Source of the DNA: Magnetovibrio sp.
GTDB lineage: Bacteria > Pseudomonadota > Alphaproteobacteria > Rhodospirillales > Magnetovibrionaceae
Assembly (NCBI RefSeq): GCF_036568125.1
Contig: NZ_DATCTF010000007.1
Span: forward strand, 1 to 64,000
DNA: 64,000 nt
Direction: 5' to 3'
The position numbers were made by a program, and so were the translations under genes. This document shows, piece after piece, positions 19,223 through 27,892 of the stretch. The notes under the pieces were generated by a model. The model was given only the letters and a program-made list of their open reading frames with translations, searched no databases and was not told the origin of the DNA. Each line of letters starts with the position of its first letter. Position 1 is the stretch's first letter.

Positions 19223-20215
19223 ATGAGCGGCGTCCAAACCGTAGAGGTCTCGCGCGAAGATGACGGTTTGCGCCTCGACAAGTGGTTCAAGAAGCACTAT
19301 CCGGGGCTAACCTTCGGGCGGTTGCAAAAGCTGCTGCGCACCGGCCAAATCCGCGTTGACGGCAGTAAAGCCAAAGAGCCAAGCTTGCGCCTGGAAGCGG
19401 GGCAAAGTGTGCGCGTACCGCCGTTGGAACGCGAAAAAGACGCCAAACCGATCCAGACCGCCAATCAGCGCCTGACCCGCGACGAGGCCGAGGCGATCCG
19501 TTCGTGGGTGTTGCACCAAGACGATCACGTCATAATTTTGAACAAGCCCGCCGGGTTGGCCGTCCAAGGCGGCAGCGGCACCAAACAGCATGTCGACCGC
19601 TTGCTCGGGGCGTTGAAGGGCGATTATCCTGACAAGCCGCGCTTGGTCCATCGCCTCGACAAAGATACGTCGGGCATATTGGTGTTGGCGCGTACGCAGC
19701 GCGCCGCACAGGCGCTGACCGCTGCGTTTCGCACCAAAGATGTGCGCAAGGCCTATTGGGCGGTGGTGGTCGGCGTACCCGAGATGTCCCAGGGGCGCAT
19801 CGACTTGGCGTTGAGCAAGCGCCACTCCAAAAGCGGTGAGCGGATGGTGGTGGACGAGTTCGAAGGCAAACGCGCGGTGACCGCGTTCAAAACCATCGAT
19901 CAAGCCGGGCGGCGTGCTGTGTGGCTGGAAATGGAGCCCATTACCGGGCGCACCCATCAATTGCGCGTGCACATGCAGGCCATCGGCACGCCCATTCTCG
20001 GCGATGGAAAATACGGCGGTGGGGAAGCCTTCCTGCCCGGGGCAGAGGTGGCCAAGCAATTGCATCTGCATGCCCGCGCGATCCGTTTTCCCCATCCCGC
20101 AGGCGGCATGTTCGAGATCATCGCGCCGTTGCCCGCGCACATGAAAGAGACCTGGGCCTATCTGGGCTTTGACGAAGCCTCGGCGCCGCCGCCGTTCGAA
20201 GAAGATCTCCCCTAA
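19223..20215 (+). CDS. rluC: 23S rRNA pseudouridine synthase, RluC/RluA family
   Basis: The enzyme isomerises uridines in 23S rRNA. The 330-residue protein has an N-terminal S4 RNA-binding domain at about 15-75 and a catalytic domain with HRLDKDTSG at 143-151, whose Asp146 is the catalytic residue. The RTHQLRVHMQAIG motif follows. It most resembles RluC, with sites near 955, 2504 and 2580 in E. coli numbering. RluA-type specificity cannot be excluded. Confidence 0.88.
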   Translation: MSGVQTVEVSREDDGLRLDKWFKKHYPGLTFGRLQKLLRTGQIRVDGSKAKEPSLRLEAGQSVRVPPLEREKDAKPIQTANQRLTRDEAEAIRSWVLHQDDHVIILNKPAGLAVQGGSGTKQHVDRLLGALKGDYPDKPRLVHRLDKDTSGILVLARTQRAAQALTAAFRTKDVRKAYWAVVVGVPEMSQGRIDLALSKRHSKSGERMVVDEFEGKRAVTAFKTIDQAGRRAVWLEMEPITGRTHQLRVHMQAIGTPILGDGKYGGGEAFLPGAEVAKQLHLHARAIRFPHPAGGMFEIIAPLPAHMKETWAYLGFDEASAPPPFEEDLP

Positions 20216-20432
20216 GAGCTTGTGTGTGTTTTGTTCGCAAATTGCAAATGCTTCGCATTGCGCGTTAAGGCGTGGACGAAATAGCATCTCAGACCTTTCC
20301 TGAAGTGATGCTTTAGGTTAAGTTTTGGCAATAACTATCTGATTGTAATAATAACATATTTGTGATCGGTGTGCCTGAATCGGTGGCATACGGCTTGCTC
20401 CTGAAGGGGAAACCCCTCGAAGGAGAAAACAT

Positions 20433-20987
20433 ATGGACCGCACAGCCCTCCGAAATCAGCTCATTTTCACACGCCAACACCGCACGCCGTCATCGCGTGT
20501 TCGAGTCGCTGTCGACCATGGTGAAAATCGCAATCGACTGTTGGCGGTTGCGTTTTGGGCCTCGCTGGCGATTTTGATGTTCGGCGCGCTCGACGCTCAT
20601 GCCAACAGCGGCGAGACGCCTGAACTGGCCGCTGTGCCCAAACCGGTTGCTCCGGTGGTTATGGCTGCGTCAATCAAACAGCCTTTTGAGATGCGGGGCG
20701 CTTGCCGCGACGGGATCGCCGTTTTTACGGTGAAGAACACCACTAAACCGTGGTCGGGACGGGGCCATTTGCGCATTTATGACGGACAGAGCGGTTACAT
20801 GTTGCGTGAACGTTGGCTGCGCTTTGGCGAAGGTCAGAGCGCCTCTTTTCACATCGATCCGAAACTTGCGCCTTCCGCGCGCTATAAAATCAGTGTAACC
20901 CTTCCGGATCGGTCCATGACTTACAAGAAAAGCTTTCGTGGCCAGTGCGCGGTGCCCGTCGTCGAAGCACGCAATGCAAGACGTTGA
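20433..20987 (+). CDS. Secreted two-cysteine protein, paralogue of the gene at 22904
   Basis: A 184-residue protein of unknown function. The start is well supported by AAGGAGAAA 7 bases upstream. A hydrophobic stretch at about 36-56 followed by AHANS suggests a signal peptide with a long N-region or a membrane anchor. The mature part has just two cysteines, C91 and C172, 81 residues apart. The gene at 22904 encodes a protein with the same 81-residue cysteine spacing. A gap-free alignment of the two gives 23 identical positions of 82, including W, G, LR, Y, ER, LR, GQ and SF. The two genes flank a two-component system. I do not recognise the family. Confidence 0.7.
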   Translation: MDRTALRNQLIFTRQHRTPSSRVRVAVDHGENRNRLLAVAFWASLAILMFGALDAHANSGETPELAAVPKPVAPVVMAASIKQPFEMRGACRDGIAVFTVKNTTKPWSGRGHLRIYDGQSGYMLRERWLRFGEGQSASFHIDPKLAPSARYKISVTLPDRSMTYKKSFRGQCAVPVVEARNARR

Positions 20988-21056
20988 AATTCCCACAAAA
21001 CTGGTTCACAGTGGCGCTGCCAGACGTGAAAAATGCCGGAACCCGGCTGGGGTCAC

Positions 21057-21737
21057 ATGCGTATCCTGCTCGTCGAAGATAATCTACGCCTTTCCACATA
21101 TGTGCGGCGCGGTCTTGAAAAAGAAGATTTCACCGTGGATGGAGTCGGTTCCATTGCGGACGCTGAAGCAGCGCTCGACACGGCGCCTTACGATTTGATG
21201 ATCTTGGATCTCGGTCTGCCGGACGGGGATGGCTTGGACCTGCTCAAGCGGTTTCGTGCTAACGACCGCCATTTGCCGGTGCTTGTGCTGACCGCGCGCG
21301 ATGGCGTGGACGATCGCGTCAAAGGCCTAAATGCCGGTGCCGATGACTATCTGCTCAAGCCGTTTGCCGTCGAAGAGTTGACGGCGCGCCTGCGCGCCTT
21401 GCTGCGCCGTCCCGATGGGGTGTTGGGGCTGAGCCTCAAGGCGGGCAACTTGACCTTCGACACCACCGCGCGCGAAGTGCGGGTGGAGAGCAGTTTGCTC
21501 AAAGTCTCCCGCAAGGAGATGAACGTCCTGGAACAGCTAATGCGTCGCGCGGGCAAGGTGGTGCCCAAAGACGTTCTGGAAAGCAAGCTGTACGGCTTTG
21601 ACGAAGACGTGTCCGCAAATTCATTGGAAGCGCACATTTCGCGGCTGCGTAAGCGCTTGAACCAGGCGGGGGCTTCGGTGAGCATTCACACCTTGCGCGG
21701 AGTCGGGTACTTGCTGTCGGATGGTGGGGACAGCTAA
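21057..21737 (+). CDS. OmpR-family response regulator
   Basis: A 226-residue DNA-binding regulator. The receiver domain has D51 as phosphoacceptor in LMILDLGLPDGDGLD, T79 and K101. A winged-helix DNA-binding domain with ISRLRKRL follows. The ATG at 21057 gives MRILLVEDN, the family start; the in-frame ATG at 21033 would add 8 residues. The 3' end overlaps the kinase gene by 17 bases, so the pair is translated together. The upstream neighbour encodes a secreted protein that may be a target or a sensor partner. Confidence 0.93.
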   Translation: MRILLVEDNLRLSTYVRRGLEKEDFTVDGVGSIADAEAALDTAPYDLMILDLGLPDGDGLDLLKRFRANDRHLPVLVLTARDGVDDRVKGLNAGADDYLLKPFAVEELTARLRALLRRPDGVLGLSLKAGNLTFDTTAREVRVESSLLKVSRKEMNVLEQLMRRAGKVVPKDVLESKLYGFDEDVSANSLEAHISRLRKRLNQAGASVSIHTLRGVGYLLSDGGDS

Positions 21738-22641
21738 GGCCGTGGTGACATCTTTCAATCGCGTTTTTAAACTGGCCTCCATCAGTCTTCTGGCGACTTT
21801 CGTGCTGGCGGTCATTTGGGAATTTGCGTTCGAATACCCGCTGTTCATCGGTTTCGGCTGGGTCGATGAGGCCGAGAGCATCGCTTCGCGTTGGGGGCAT
21901 GTGGCCGTTATCATGATTTTCGCCACAATTGCGGTGGTGTTTCTGGCCTTGTTGTCGATCCGCTTGGTGCGGGAATTGAAGGCCAAGGACGAAACCATGC
22001 GTCTCAAGGACGAAGAGCGCATGAACTTTGCCGCCGATGTCGCCCATGAACTGCGTACCCCTTTGGCGGTTCTGCGCGCACATTTGGACAGCCTGGACGA
22101 CGCCGACACCAATTTCCAATTGATTCAAGACGTCGACCGAATCACCCGCATCGTCGAGCAGGTTTTGACCAAATCGCGCATTGAAGCGATTGAGCTCGGC
22201 CCCAATGACAAGGCCGATTTGGCCGAGGTTGCGTCGTCCATGGCGGCGTATCTGGCGCCCTTGGTGATCAAGGAAGGCCGATCCATCGAGGTTGTCGGCG
22301 CGGAAAGCCCGATCATCATCAAAGGAAATACGTTCGCGTTGGAGCAGGCTTTGCGCAATTTGGTCGAAAACGCCATCAAGTACTCGGCTCGGGGCTCCAC
22401 CATCACCATTGAAGTGAGCCAGACGCCGTCCATCCGCGTCATCGATCGCGGCCGTGGCGTTCCCTATGAACAACGCGAAATGATTTTCGAGCGATTCCAC
22501 CGGGCTGACCGGCGCAGCGGTGGCTCGGGGCTGGGATTGTCCATCGTGCGCCGAGTCGCCGAAGCCCATGGCGGATCCGTCGCCATCGAAGACGCACCCG
22601 GAGGTGGTTCTGTGTTCGTTTTAAGTTTTCCTAGACTCTGA
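21721..22641 (+). CDS. Sensor histidine kinase
   Basis: A 306-residue inner-membrane kinase, partner of the preceding regulator. Two hydrophobic segments (about 17-37 and 58-82) leave a periplasmic loop of only about 20 residues, so direct ligand sensing by a large domain is unlikely. The HisKA box is FAADVAHELRTPL with H109. The ATP-binding part has VIDRGRGVP and SGLGLSIV. ATG at 21721 overlaps the regulator. GTG codons at 21742 and 21745 are alternative starts. Confidence 0.92.
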   Translation: MVGTAKAVVTSFNRVFKLASISLLATFVLAVIWEFAFEYPLFIGFGWVDEAESIASRWGHVAVIMIFATIAVVFLALLSIRLVRELKAKDETMRLKDEERMNFAADVAHELRTPLAVLRAHLDSLDDADTNFQLIQDVDRITRIVEQVLTKSRIEAIELGPNDKADLAEVASSMAAYLAPLVIKEGRSIEVVGAESPIIIKGNTFALEQALRNLVENAIKYSARGSTITIEVSQTPSIRVIDRGRGVPYEQREMIFERFHRADRRSGGSGLGLSIVRRVAEAHGGSVAIEDAPGGGSVFVLSFPRL

Positions 22642-22706
22642 AGTAACATGCTTAACTGATTGAATTAAATTGAAACTCATAATTATTTTGGGGGTATTTT
22701 TTTTGC

Positions 22707-22723
22707 TGTCAGGTAATTGTCAG
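22707..22723. promoter_or_regulatory. TGTCAG direct repeat, candidate response-regulator site
   Basis: TGTCAG occurs at 22707-22712 and again at 22718-22723, an 11-base period with a 5-base gap. OmpR-type regulators commonly bind two direct half-sites one helical turn apart. The site lies in the 262-base gap between the kinase and the secreted protein gene at 22904. Assignment to the neighbouring regulator is inference. Confidence 0.4.
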
Positions 22724-22903
22724 CTTGGCTGTGCATAGTCCTGTTTAAGAGCTGATGAGCTAACAATTGGGCCACCCCCCTCATTTAAAAATAACTCACG
22801 GCGAACAAAAACATTAAGTGCACTTCAGGGAAGGGAACGGGACGCCAGGGAGATCTCTACGCGGCTCTTTAAACTCTCGGAAGAATGAATAGGACTTTTC
22901 TCG

Positions 22904-23302
22904 ATGATGCTCTCCAAAACATTAATGGGGTTTTGTGCAGCAGCAATGATGACCATGTCGAACGTGAGCGCCAGTTTGGCGCAGGAGGCTTCTCAGGCTG
23001 AAGTCGCGGTGACACCGCCGACATTTTTGCAGCTCGAAATTACAAGCGCATGCACCGAAGAAGGTGCGGTGTTCAAGATTGTCAATCGCGGCGCAAAGTG
23101 GCCGCGCACGGGTTACCTCAGGCTCTATCACGCCGACAGCAAATCTCTGCTTGGGGAACGTCGTTTGCGTTTGGCGCCCGGCCAGAAGGTTTCCTTCGTG
23201 GTGAAGAAAAAAGTGATGAACGGTCATCCGGTCGCCGTTTGGGTCGAGCCGGAATGGTACAAGCGAGAAATGGAATACGACGCGAGCATCAAGTGTAACT
23301 GA
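22904..23302 (+). CDS. Secreted two-cysteine protein, paralogue of the gene at 20433
   Basis: A 132-residue protein of unknown function with a clear signal peptide ending near SLAQ (24-27). Beyond the signal there are just two cysteines, C50 and C131, 81 residues apart, as in the gene at 20433. The shared core is rich in beta-strand-like sequence, for example GYLRLYHADSK and GERRLRLAPGQKVSF. A compact beta-sandwich closed by one disulfide is a plausible structure. The region upstream is AT-rich and holds a TGTCAG direct repeat. A terminator follows about 120 bases after the stop. Confidence 0.72.
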   Translation: MMLSKTLMGFCAAAMMTMSNVSASLAQEASQAEVAVTPPTFLQLEITSACTEEGAVFKIVNRGAKWPRTGYLRLYHADSKSLLGERRLRLAPGQKVSFVVKKKVMNGHPVAVWVEPEWYKREMEYDASIKCN

Positions 23303-25035: not shown

Positions 25036-25094
25036 GTAACCGATCTTATCAATGAGAGTTCAACACGCGTGCCTCACGTGTAAAGGTGACCGAT

Positions 25095-25802
25095 ATGAAT
25101 GACAACCCCCAGTCCTTGCCTCACCCCTCGCCCTTGCGCCTTGCGGTGTTTGACTGCGACGGTACGCTGGTGGACAGTCAGTATTCCATTATCGCGTCGA
25201 TGCACGCGGCGTTCGAACATCACGGTTTCGACATCCCCGAGCCCGAAGCCGTGCGCCGAGTGGTGGGCTTGCCGTTGGAGGTTGCGATCCGTCATCTGGC
25301 GCCGCACATCGACGAGGCCTTTTCCGTCGAGGTCAGCGAGACCTATAAATCGGCGTTTTTCCAATTGCGTCAGGCGGGCGGGGTGCAAGAGCCCATGTTC
25401 GCCGGAATATCCGGGGTTTTGGATCAATTGGACGCCGCGGGGTGGTTGATGGCGGTGGCGACGGGAAAATCTCACCGGGGGCTTATGGCGACGCTCAATC
25501 ATCACAATATCTATGACAGGTTCGTTACCCATCAGACGGCGGACCGCGCCCACGGCAAACCGCATCCCGATATGATGCACAAAGCCATGAACGCGACCGG
25601 GGCCAACCGTGAGGATACGATCATGATCGGCGATACCACGTTCGACATCGAAATGGCGAAAAACGCCGGTGTACGTTCAATCGGCGTCTCCTGGGGCTAT
25701 CACAAACCCCAAGAGTTGCATGATGCCGGGGCCGCGTGCGTGGTCAGTTCGGCCGATGAATTGGCCGCCGCGTTGTTCGCATTGGCGGAGCAAGATGGAT
25801 GA
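25095..25802 (+). CDS. HAD-superfamily phosphatase, phosphoglycolate phosphatase-like
   Basis: A 235-residue hydrolase. Motif I is FDCDGTLVDS with D20 and D22, motif II has ATGKS, and motif III/IV is GKPHPD with IGDTTFDIEMAKNAG. The cap domain is of the Gph type, with phosphoglycolate as the likely but unproven substrate. The ATG at 25095 is chosen because AAAGGTGA lies 7 bases before it; a GTG at 25086 is possible. Its stop overlaps the start of the AsmA-like gene (ATGA). Confidence 0.88.
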   Translation: MNDNPQSLPHPSPLRLAVFDCDGTLVDSQYSIIASMHAAFEHHGFDIPEPEAVRRVVGLPLEVAIRHLAPHIDEAFSVEVSETYKSAFFQLRQAGGVQEPMFAGISGVLDQLDAAGWLMAVATGKSHRGLMATLNHHNIYDRFVTHQTADRAHGKPHPDMMHKAMNATGANREDTIMIGDTTFDIEMAKNAGVRSIGVSWGYHKPQELHDAGAACVVSSADELAAALFALAEQDG

Positions 25803-27892
25803 AAACGACCCTCAAGATTGTCGGCGCCCTGATGGTCTTGATGATCGCCACGGTCGTGGCGTTGGTGTCGGTTTTGTTGTCGTTGGACTATGGGCGCTAT
25901 AAGGCCGACCTGGACAAGATGGTGCAAGACGCCACGGGGCGGGAGTTCACCATCGCCGGCGATCTTGACCTGGCGCTGTCGTTGACGCCCAAACTGACCG
26001 TCACCGACGTGACCCTGGCCAACGCCGGGTGGGGGCGTGACGTGCCGATGATGACGTTCAAGCGCCTCGATGCCCAAGTGGCGCTGCGGCCGCTGCTGTC
26101 GGGACGCCTGGAAATCGACTTCATCGAATTGGATGGGGTGAATTTGGTGCTGCAGACCGATGGCGCGGGCAAGGCCAACTGGGAATTTCCCACCTTAAGC
26201 CAGCAACCCGCCGGCGCTGAGGTTCAAGGCGTGGGGCAAGAATTGAAGCTGACCCCCAGCGTGAGCGCGGTGCGTCTGCGCAACGTGCACGTCACCTACA
26301 TCGACGGCGCAACCGGCGTGGAACTCGAAACAGATCTCAAACGTGCCGATTTCACCGCTGAAAGCGTCGACAGTCCGCTGAAGGGCGATATCGAAGCCGT
26401 GTTCAATGGCGTCGCGGTCGAAGGGCGGGCGGAGCTGGGCTCGCTCGGCTTGTTGATCGCCACCGAAGGCGCGGCTTTTCCGGTCAATTTGAAGCTATCA
26501 GCGGAAGATTTGAGTGCCGACATCGTCGGCACCGTCGATCAACCCAGCGCCGGAATGGCGATCAATGCGCGGGTCCATGCCCAGGCGCCGAACAGCGCCA
26601 CCCTGTCCAAACTGGCCGGGGTGGAATTGCCCGATGTGGGGGCGATCGACGTCCGCGCCAATGTCAGCGGCGCGGGTACGGCCTTCACCTTTAAAGGGCT
26701 CGAGGCGACGCTGGGCAATTCCGATGTGAAGGGTGATGCGGAGGTGAAGTTGTCCGGTGCGCGCCCCAGCGTGACGGCGAAACTGTCGTCGGATTTTCTC
26801 GACGTCAATCAATTGGCGGGGCTGAGCGTCGAGCGTAAAGACGACGACGCGCCGCTGAGCCGGGTGTTTACCACCGAACCGTTGCCTTTCGAGGTGTTGA
26901 AAACCACGGATGCCGACGTGCGTTACAGCGCCAAGCGGTTACGGGTCGACGCGGTGAGCCTGACGTCTTTGAACGCGGTGGCGAAGCTCAACGGCGGCAC
27001 GTTGCGTGTGGCCCCGTTGCAGTTCACCTTCGACGAGGGCCGCGTGAGCGCGCGCATGTCGGTGGATAGTGGCCGCGAGACGCCGGAGGTGACGGTGCGC
27101 GCTTCTTTACGCAGCCTGGATGCGGGTACGTTTCTGGCAATGGCGGGGCAAGGGCGCATCGTGAGCTTGAAGCTCGACGGCGAGGTGAATTTACAAAGCG
27201 CGGGCGCCACGACCCAAACACTCGCCGCGGCTTTGAACGGTTCGGTGAATTTGATCGGGCGCAACGGTCAGATCCATGACGATAAGTTCGCGGACTTGAC
27301 CGAAGGCATCGGCAGCATCATGCCGTGGGCGTCGAACAAGGATGCCAATAAAATTTCCTGCTTTTTGGCCAAATGGCCCATCACCAACGGCGATGCGGTG
27401 GCGGAAACCGTGGTGCTCGACACCAGCGGCGTGTCGGCGCGGGTGACCGGCAATGTCGATCTGCCGGGCGAATTGCTGCATCTGACGGTCAACACCAGTG
27501 CCAAGAAAACCAGCCTCGCCAGTTTCGCTGTGCCGGTGCGCATCAAAGGATCGCTGTTGGAACCGCGCATCGACGTCGATCCGGGCGAAGCGGTGGTCGG
27601 CACGGTCGGCAACATCGTCAAGGCCCCGGCCAAGCTGATCGCCGGGCTGCTCAGCGACACCATCGGTTTGGTCGCCAGTGAAGAGGCGCTCAAAGAGGCT
27701 GCGGACAAGAATGATCCTTGCCTTCAAGCGCTCAGCGGGGGTAAGACCACCCAAACGCCAGCAAACCATACGCCGTCCGCCGAGAAGAAGCCGGACCCGA
27801 AACCGACCACGCCCGCCGACAACACCAAGTCCACGGGCGATCCGCTCAAGGATGTCGAAAAGGTCGGCGAGGCGCTGAAAAAACTCTTTTAG
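25799..27892 (+). CDS. AsmA-family envelope protein
   Basis: A 697-residue protein with one N-terminal hydrophobic segment (about 8-30) and a long, repetitive beta-rich periplasmic region. The N-terminus (FTIAGDLDLALSLTPKLTVTDVTLAN) is the AsmA domain. AsmA-like proteins are part of the bridge system that moves phospholipids between the two membranes. The C-terminal 60 residues are rich in Lys, Pro and Thr. Translation is coupled to the HAD gene by an ATGA overlap. The specific paralogue is not clear. Confidence 0.88.
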   Translation: MKTTLKIVGALMVLMIATVVALVSVLLSLDYGRYKADLDKMVQDATGREFTIAGDLDLALSLTPKLTVTDVTLANAGWGRDVPMMTFKRLDAQVALRPLLSGRLEIDFIELDGVNLVLQTDGAGKANWEFPTLSQQPAGAEVQGVGQELKLTPSVSAVRLRNVHVTYIDGATGVELETDLKRADFTAESVDSPLKGDIEAVFNGVAVEGRAELGSLGLLIATEGAAFPVNLKLSAEDLSADIVGTVDQPSAGMAINARVHAQAPNSATLSKLAGVELPDVGAIDVRANVSGAGTAFTFKGLEATLGNSDVKGDAEVKLSGARPSVTAKLSSDFLDVNQLAGLSVERKDDDAPLSRVFTTEPLPFEVLKTTDADVRYSAKRLRVDAVSLTSLNAVAKLNGGTLRVAPLQFTFDEGRVSARMSVDSGRETPEVTVRASLRSLDAGTFLAMAGQGRIVSLKLDGEVNLQSAGATTQTLAAALNGSVNLIGRNGQIHDDKFADLTEGIGSIMPWASNKDANKISCFLAKWPITNGDAVAETVVLDTSGVSARVTGNVDLPGELLHLTVNTSAKKTSLASFAVPVRIKGSLLEPRIDVDPGEAVVGTVGNIVKAPAKLIAGLLSDTIGLVASEEALKEAADKNDPCLQALSGGKTTQTPANHTPSAEKKPDPKPTTPADNTKSTGDPLKDVEKVGEALKKLF

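Follow-up and report, generated by a model that had tools for sequence, protein, structure and literature searches.

A conserved direct repeat points to an exported FAM-domain protein as the probable output of an adjacent OmpR-type two-component system in Magnetovibrio

The window, a 64,000-nucleotide stretch of Magnetovibrio DNA, carries an OmpR-type response regulator and a sensor histidine kinase between the genes of two FAM-domain proteins, P0001 and P0002. It is likely that the P0002 gene is switched on by the adjacent regulator through a direct repeat upstream of it, and that P0001 is at most accessory. The predicted operator provides a first functional handle on two periplasmic domain families, FAM and its partner GDW, that are undescribed in the libraries searched. 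The features of the locus are as follows.

19223..20215, forward strand: RluC-type pseudouridine synthase, left anchor of the conserved site (Pfam PF00849; synteny)
20433..20987, forward strand: P0001, FAM-domain protein of 184 aa; open reading frame with a long N-terminus and then a hydrophobic segment
21033..21737, likely start 21057, forward strand: OmpR-type response regulator, REC and winged helix (Pfam PF00072, PF00486)
21721..22641, forward strand: sensor histidine kinase with two membrane segments (Pfam HisKA, HATPase_c; alignment; hydropathy)
22707..22723, forward strand: predicted operator, direct repeat TGTCAG-GTAAT-TGTCAG, half-sites 11 bp apart
22734..22739, forward strand: -10-like hexamer CATAGT, 10 bp past the second half-site, putative promoter element
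22904..23302, forward strand: P0002, exported FAM-domain protein of 132 aa, predicted output of the regulator
25086..25802, forward strand: HAD-type hydrolase, right anchor of the conserved site (named from sequence, not from a library; synteny)
25799-27892: AsmA, after the HAD-type hydrolase (Pfam)

P0001 and P0002 are homologous. The gap-free core of 82 residues proposed in the first-pass annotation was recovered, with C91 and C172 of P0001 in register with C50 and C131 of P0002 and 23 of 82 positions identical. Shuffled cores gave a mean of 4.7 identities and a maximum of 14 in 20,000 shuffles. The Smith-Waterman score of the two proteins is 105 against 27.7 +/- 4.5 for shuffled sequences, none of 5000 shuffles scoring as high, and BLASTP aligned only 51 residues (39% identity, E 1e-9). 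Their description as two-cysteine proteins fits the core pair, but P0002 has a third cysteine, C11, in its presumed signal peptide. They had also both been called secreted; from its sequence P0002 is predicted to be exported. P0001, however, may be anchored rather than secreted, because an AGGAG precedes its ATG at 20433 and about 35 residues lie ahead of the hydrophobic stretch. A third paralogue, 50% identical to P0002, is encoded on contig C14 of the same genome. In a tree of 70 rows and few columns, the C14 copies group with P0002 and its orthologues, and the four P0001 orthologues form a supported, long-branched clade of unsure position. In the stretch L034:1886-7641 the C14 copy lies immediately upstream of a PAS-GAF-GGDEF protein, an arrangement common to the five genomes of the genus that were compared. 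Farther along, similarity or reading by eye suggests a hemerythrin, a HEAT-like protein and one resembling a receiver-phosphatase.

The family was not recognised at first pass, and it has no entry in Pfam, NCBIfam or the other libraries searched. P0001 and P0002 gave no significant match in Pfam or NCBIfam, and in a Pfam scan of 29 FAM and 23 GDW members no model hit more than three members (best E-value 0.0042). CopC (NCBIfam NF033814) scored 13.4 bits against a cut-off of 95 bits. A remote sequence search yielded no PDB relative (best E 1.8 and 0.33), a PHROGs search nothing significant, and searches of plasmids (queries P0002 and a fused GDW-FAM protein) and phages (query P0002) no match. 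The FAM profile A1, built from 29 rows in which both cysteines, F57, N61, W66, R86 and P116 (P0002 numbering) are invariant, detects the domain in 69 of 297 genomes of one alphaproteobacterial order and in 4 of 385 across the class, the window's genome among the latter. FAM is thus mainly confined to one alphaproteobacterial order.

Pfam confirmed the two genes between the FAM genes as an OmpR-type regulator (REC and Trans_reg_C) and a kinase (HisKA and HATPase_c). The regulator has its phospho-acceptor Asp, and together with the HisKA/HATPase_c kinase beside it shows the arrangement of an OmpR-family two-component system. The regulator probably starts at 21057 (MRILLVEDN) rather than at 21033, 69 bp after the end of P0001. 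P0001, regulator and kinase probably form one operon with P0001 as its first gene. The gene order RarA-CrcB-RluC-[regulator-kinase]-FAM-HAD-AsmA occurs in three genera of the window's family; the names RluC, AsmA, regulator and kinase rest on Pfam, and RarA, CrcB, HAD, HEAT and ATP12 were read by eye from the sequences. The suspected pairing of FAM with the regulator therefore recurs in relatives, and the two proteins do not fall into unrelated families. P0001 orthologues are present in four of the five genus genomes in which the RluC-regulator interval was read (G000, G002, G003 and G005, absent from G004). Upstream of P0001, at 20216-20432 of the window, a TTYGCAWWTTGC-like stretch is common to four genomes. 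An orthologous regulator directly follows RluC in 13 of 40 further RluC loci surveyed, some of the others being cut by contig ends, from which we infer an old origin of this regulator within the order. Across 18 orthologues from several families, the recognition helix V[ST].NS[LV]..[HN][IV]SRLRKRL hardly varies.

Alignment of the sequences upstream of P0002 revealed a single conserved element, TGTCAGGTNNNTGTCAG, in 11 of 11 genomes of the family, the window included. TGTCAG-N5-TGTCAG is exact in all 11 genomes of family f1 that were read with P0002 at the site; 14 of its 17 columns are invariant, and most flanking columns carry less than 1 bit. In the window it lies 65 bp past the kinase and 180 bp ahead of P0002 and is the sole exact copy. 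The position of the -10-like hexamer is kept across the 11 genomes, with its last T in 10 and its second-position A in 9. This predicted operator has the form expected of an OmpR-family system, a direct repeat near the target promoter. Among the upstream alignments listed, none showed a conserved repeat before P0001 or the regulator.

The repeat is also enriched at the family. The window's own genome holds five exact copies, and 18 f1 genomes contain 33 exact sites against 1 for the reversed pattern. The genes behind 31 of these 33 sites were examined: 11 sites precede FAM genes and four precede HU genes, and the remainder precede DUF4402, hemerythrin, FecR/BapA-like or Sel1 proteins or genes without a name. 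Of 103 FAM or GDW genes, 15 carry YGTCAG-N5-YGTCAG in their own orientation, C having been admitted at the first base after near-sites were seen in family f27. Only 3 of 3263 other ORFs do so (Fisher 5e-21), these being all ORFs of at least 100 aa in the same loci, spurious ones included. One further gene of the 103 has the repeat on the opposite strand. Upstream of an HU gene, the TGTCAG repeat occurs in four genomes of the window's genus (L206, L235, L236 and L237; HU by Pfam in L206). In the window's own genome, L207:1476-1783 carries two exact repeats, one in each direction, with an exported DUF4402 protein on one side and a divergent large protein on the other.

The occurrence of the repeat follows the regulator. 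Of 23 genomes with a regulator orthologue, 16 carry it at a FAM or GDW gene (one of them on the opposite strand); of 12 without, none does. When f1 is set aside, 4 of 10 remain against 0 of 12 (p 0.03, for related genomes and uncorrected for kinship). The presence/absence lists were compiled by hand from locus surveys of mostly fragmented genomes, leaving out G034 (contig end), G022 (broken system) and G575 (site unsurveyed); G575 has two FAM genes with one-mismatch or Y-type sites. G014 and G585 were counted as regulator-positive despite regulator frames that the assembly shows interrupted (15 of 21 without both), and G042 was scored negative from no more than about 1.5 kb past RluC. A strict-pattern site is absent from seven of the 23 regulator-bearing genomes: G006, G458, G446, G480, G043, G493 and G585. 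G493 was counted as site-negative because its site is a one-mismatch form and its divergent regulator has another recognition helix. At individual genes, the repeat is missing from the GDW genes next to the regulator in L142 and L143, one of three in L197 has it, and in L130 the FAM neighbour of the regulator carries just a two-mismatch form.

Taken together, we propose that the phosphorylated regulator would bind head-to-tail to TGTCAG-N5-TGTCAG over the -35 region and recruit RNA polymerase to the -10 box 10 bp downstream, as PhoB-type activators do. P0002 would then be made on regulator activation as an exported, probably disulphide-bonded protein with a putative role in the envelope. P0001 would be a fast-diverging paralogue produced together with regulator and kinase, accessory at most. 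P0002 as an output would account for the conserved operator upstream of its gene. That the adjacent regulator rather than another OmpR-type one binds the repeat, and that the effect is activation, we infer from these sequence patterns.

The first-pass annotation had tied the exported proteins to two-component signalling in the opposite sense, suggesting that one or both carry the signal to the kinase. We consider it rather unlikely that FAM proteins bind the membrane loop of the kinase and carry the signal, or that P0002 feeds back as CpxP does on CpxA. Such an input role would suit the adjacency of FAM and the system in three genera, the probable operon of P0001 with regulator and kinase, and a kinase that lacks a sensor domain; a feedback loop would also agree with induction of P0002 by the regulator. 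Hydropathy confirmed the short loop, with two membrane segments (windows starting at residues 13-27 and 54-70) and a short stretch between them. However, a conserved ligand-binding loop was sought in the kinase alignment and not found, the short loop varying even inside the window's family, in most of which the kinase has 304-323 aa. Kinases elsewhere have 356-494 aa with a HEAT-like protein before them, or lie in open frames of 678-757 aa; both longer kinases checked among those paired with orthologous regulators contain PAS domains, which also speaks against input through FAM. So do three loci in which FAM directly follows RluC and the two-component system is absent (L053, L057 and L131; genomes G018, G028 and G471). 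In G007 and G012 the kinase is absent at the site, yet the regulator, the FAM gene and its operator remain, the repeat being exact in G012 and having one mismatch in G007, where the FAM gene has moved to another contig. The G007 regulator (L136:1622-2293) has Glu in place of the phospho-acceptor Asp, a phosphomimetic-like change, and no kinase gene at the site. Since the FAM repeat is kept in these two genomes without a kinase at the site, with this Asp-to-Glu change in G007, and the kinase loop is unconserved, an output role is favoured over an input role for P0002. The link of FAM to two-component signalling is real, but its direction is probably the reverse of that first suggested, given the unconserved loop and the operator at P0002. 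P0001 may be either an accessory or an input.

The main alternative binder of the repeat would be PhoB, as the Pho box has a similar half-site core and unit length. We regard it as improbable that the repeat is a Pho box and that P0002 belongs to the PhoB phosphate regulon rather than to that of the adjacent regulator. Pho-box promoters have a 10-bp spacing to the -10 box, and the window's own genome encodes two proteins above the PhoB cut-off. The TGTCA core and the 11-nt unit are also those of E. coli Pho boxes, as described in the portions available of PMC4415409 and PMC10294691. However, every one of the 22 half-sites from the 11 f1 genomes has a terminal G rather than T or C. The pst promoter of the window's own genome lies off the contig, and the local Pho box may differ from that of E. 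coli. TGTCAY repeats give 14 sites in the same 18 genomes (reversed control 4), none before FAM among the ORFs readable, and the TGTCAG site tracks the presence of the RluC-linked regulator.

FAM has a partner domain. In the loci first read, 14 FAM proteins carry FAM C-terminal to a second two-cysteine domain, GDW (named for its motif), often through a TAAG-type linker, and five further ORFs, in four loci, are neighbouring genes for GDW or fragments of it. GDW occurs in 68 of 294 genomes of the order but in none of the 18 from the window's family; for the class as a whole the count is 2 of 337. In G458, G446 and G049, GDW genes lie between kinase and HAD, the place of FAM in the window's family, and in G022 they lie beside the broken two-component system. 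Mere chance neighbourhood, with FAM part of an old RluC-HAD block that happens to enclose the two-component system, would fit the three RluC-FAM loci without the system and the presence of the system without FAM at the RluC site in several families, but is very unlikely given a repeat conserved and enriched at FAM and GDW genes and the replacement of FAM by its fusion partner at the same place.

GDW is also found fused to receivers. The 41 loci collected chiefly on account of GDW encode 43 GDW proteins, of which 21, from 17 genomes, consist of a receiver, one hydrophobic span and GDW; this proportion is not a frequency, because the loci were chosen partly for long open frames. The loci are L181, L187, L189, L190, L192-L195, L253-L255, L257, L259 and L262-L269. 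Pfam confirmed the receiver in all five receiver-GDW proteins tested, and of 20 that were aligned, 19 have the acceptor Asp. One other tested protein combines GDW with cytochrome c and another with Sel1 repeats. GDW proteins with one or two CxxCH motifs occur in L179, L183, L196, L258, L260 and L270-L272, with cytochrome c recognised by Pfam in just one of these, L179; the motifs hint at a role in redox processes or in the envelope. The receiver-span-GDW proteins would be response regulators with the membrane between receiver and output domain, GDW being presumably periplasmic. They pose the question whether a response regulator can signal outward across the membrane; a literature search for response regulators that are membrane-anchored or have such an output found none among the papers listed, which is weak evidence of absence given its incomplete coverage. 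We tentatively suggest that FAM and GDW might form one periplasmic signalling module of the order, wired both as the output of OmpR-type regulators and through receiver-span-GDW fusions that would pass phosphorylation outward, with FAM binding GDW.

Among known systems, PmrA/BasR gives the window regulator its best NCBIfam score, 229 bits, but this lies below the cut-off of 330 bits, as does the kinase at 142.6 against 314 bits. PmrA boxes are TTAA-like. CpxP is a small exported protein induced by the two-component system CpxA-CpxR, as is predicted for P0002; in contrast to that system, the window kinase lacks a periplasmic sensor and FAM is kept where the kinase is absent at the site. CpxP-like accessory proteins carry an LTXXQ motif. 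No Pfam match to LTXXQ/LTxxQ was found in P0001 or P0002, none of the matches of the 29 members is so named, and P0002 contains no LT. CenK-CenR of Rhodobacter sphaeroides likewise pairs an alphaproteobacterial OmpR-type regulator with tandem repeats and envelope genes, but in the portion available of the report its motif is TGA-N8-TGA (PMC9275681), against TGTCAG-N5-TGTCAG in the window. PhoB differs from the window regulator, which scores 161 bits against the PhoB cut-off of 296, in half-sites that in the window end in G, and in a target that here is an undescribed exported protein. It shares with that regulator the OmpR type and head-to-tail 11-nt repeats with a TGTCA core, according to the parts of PMC4415409 and PMC10294691 at hand. 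In Pho-box promoters, as in that of P0002, the repeat apparently replaces the -35 box.
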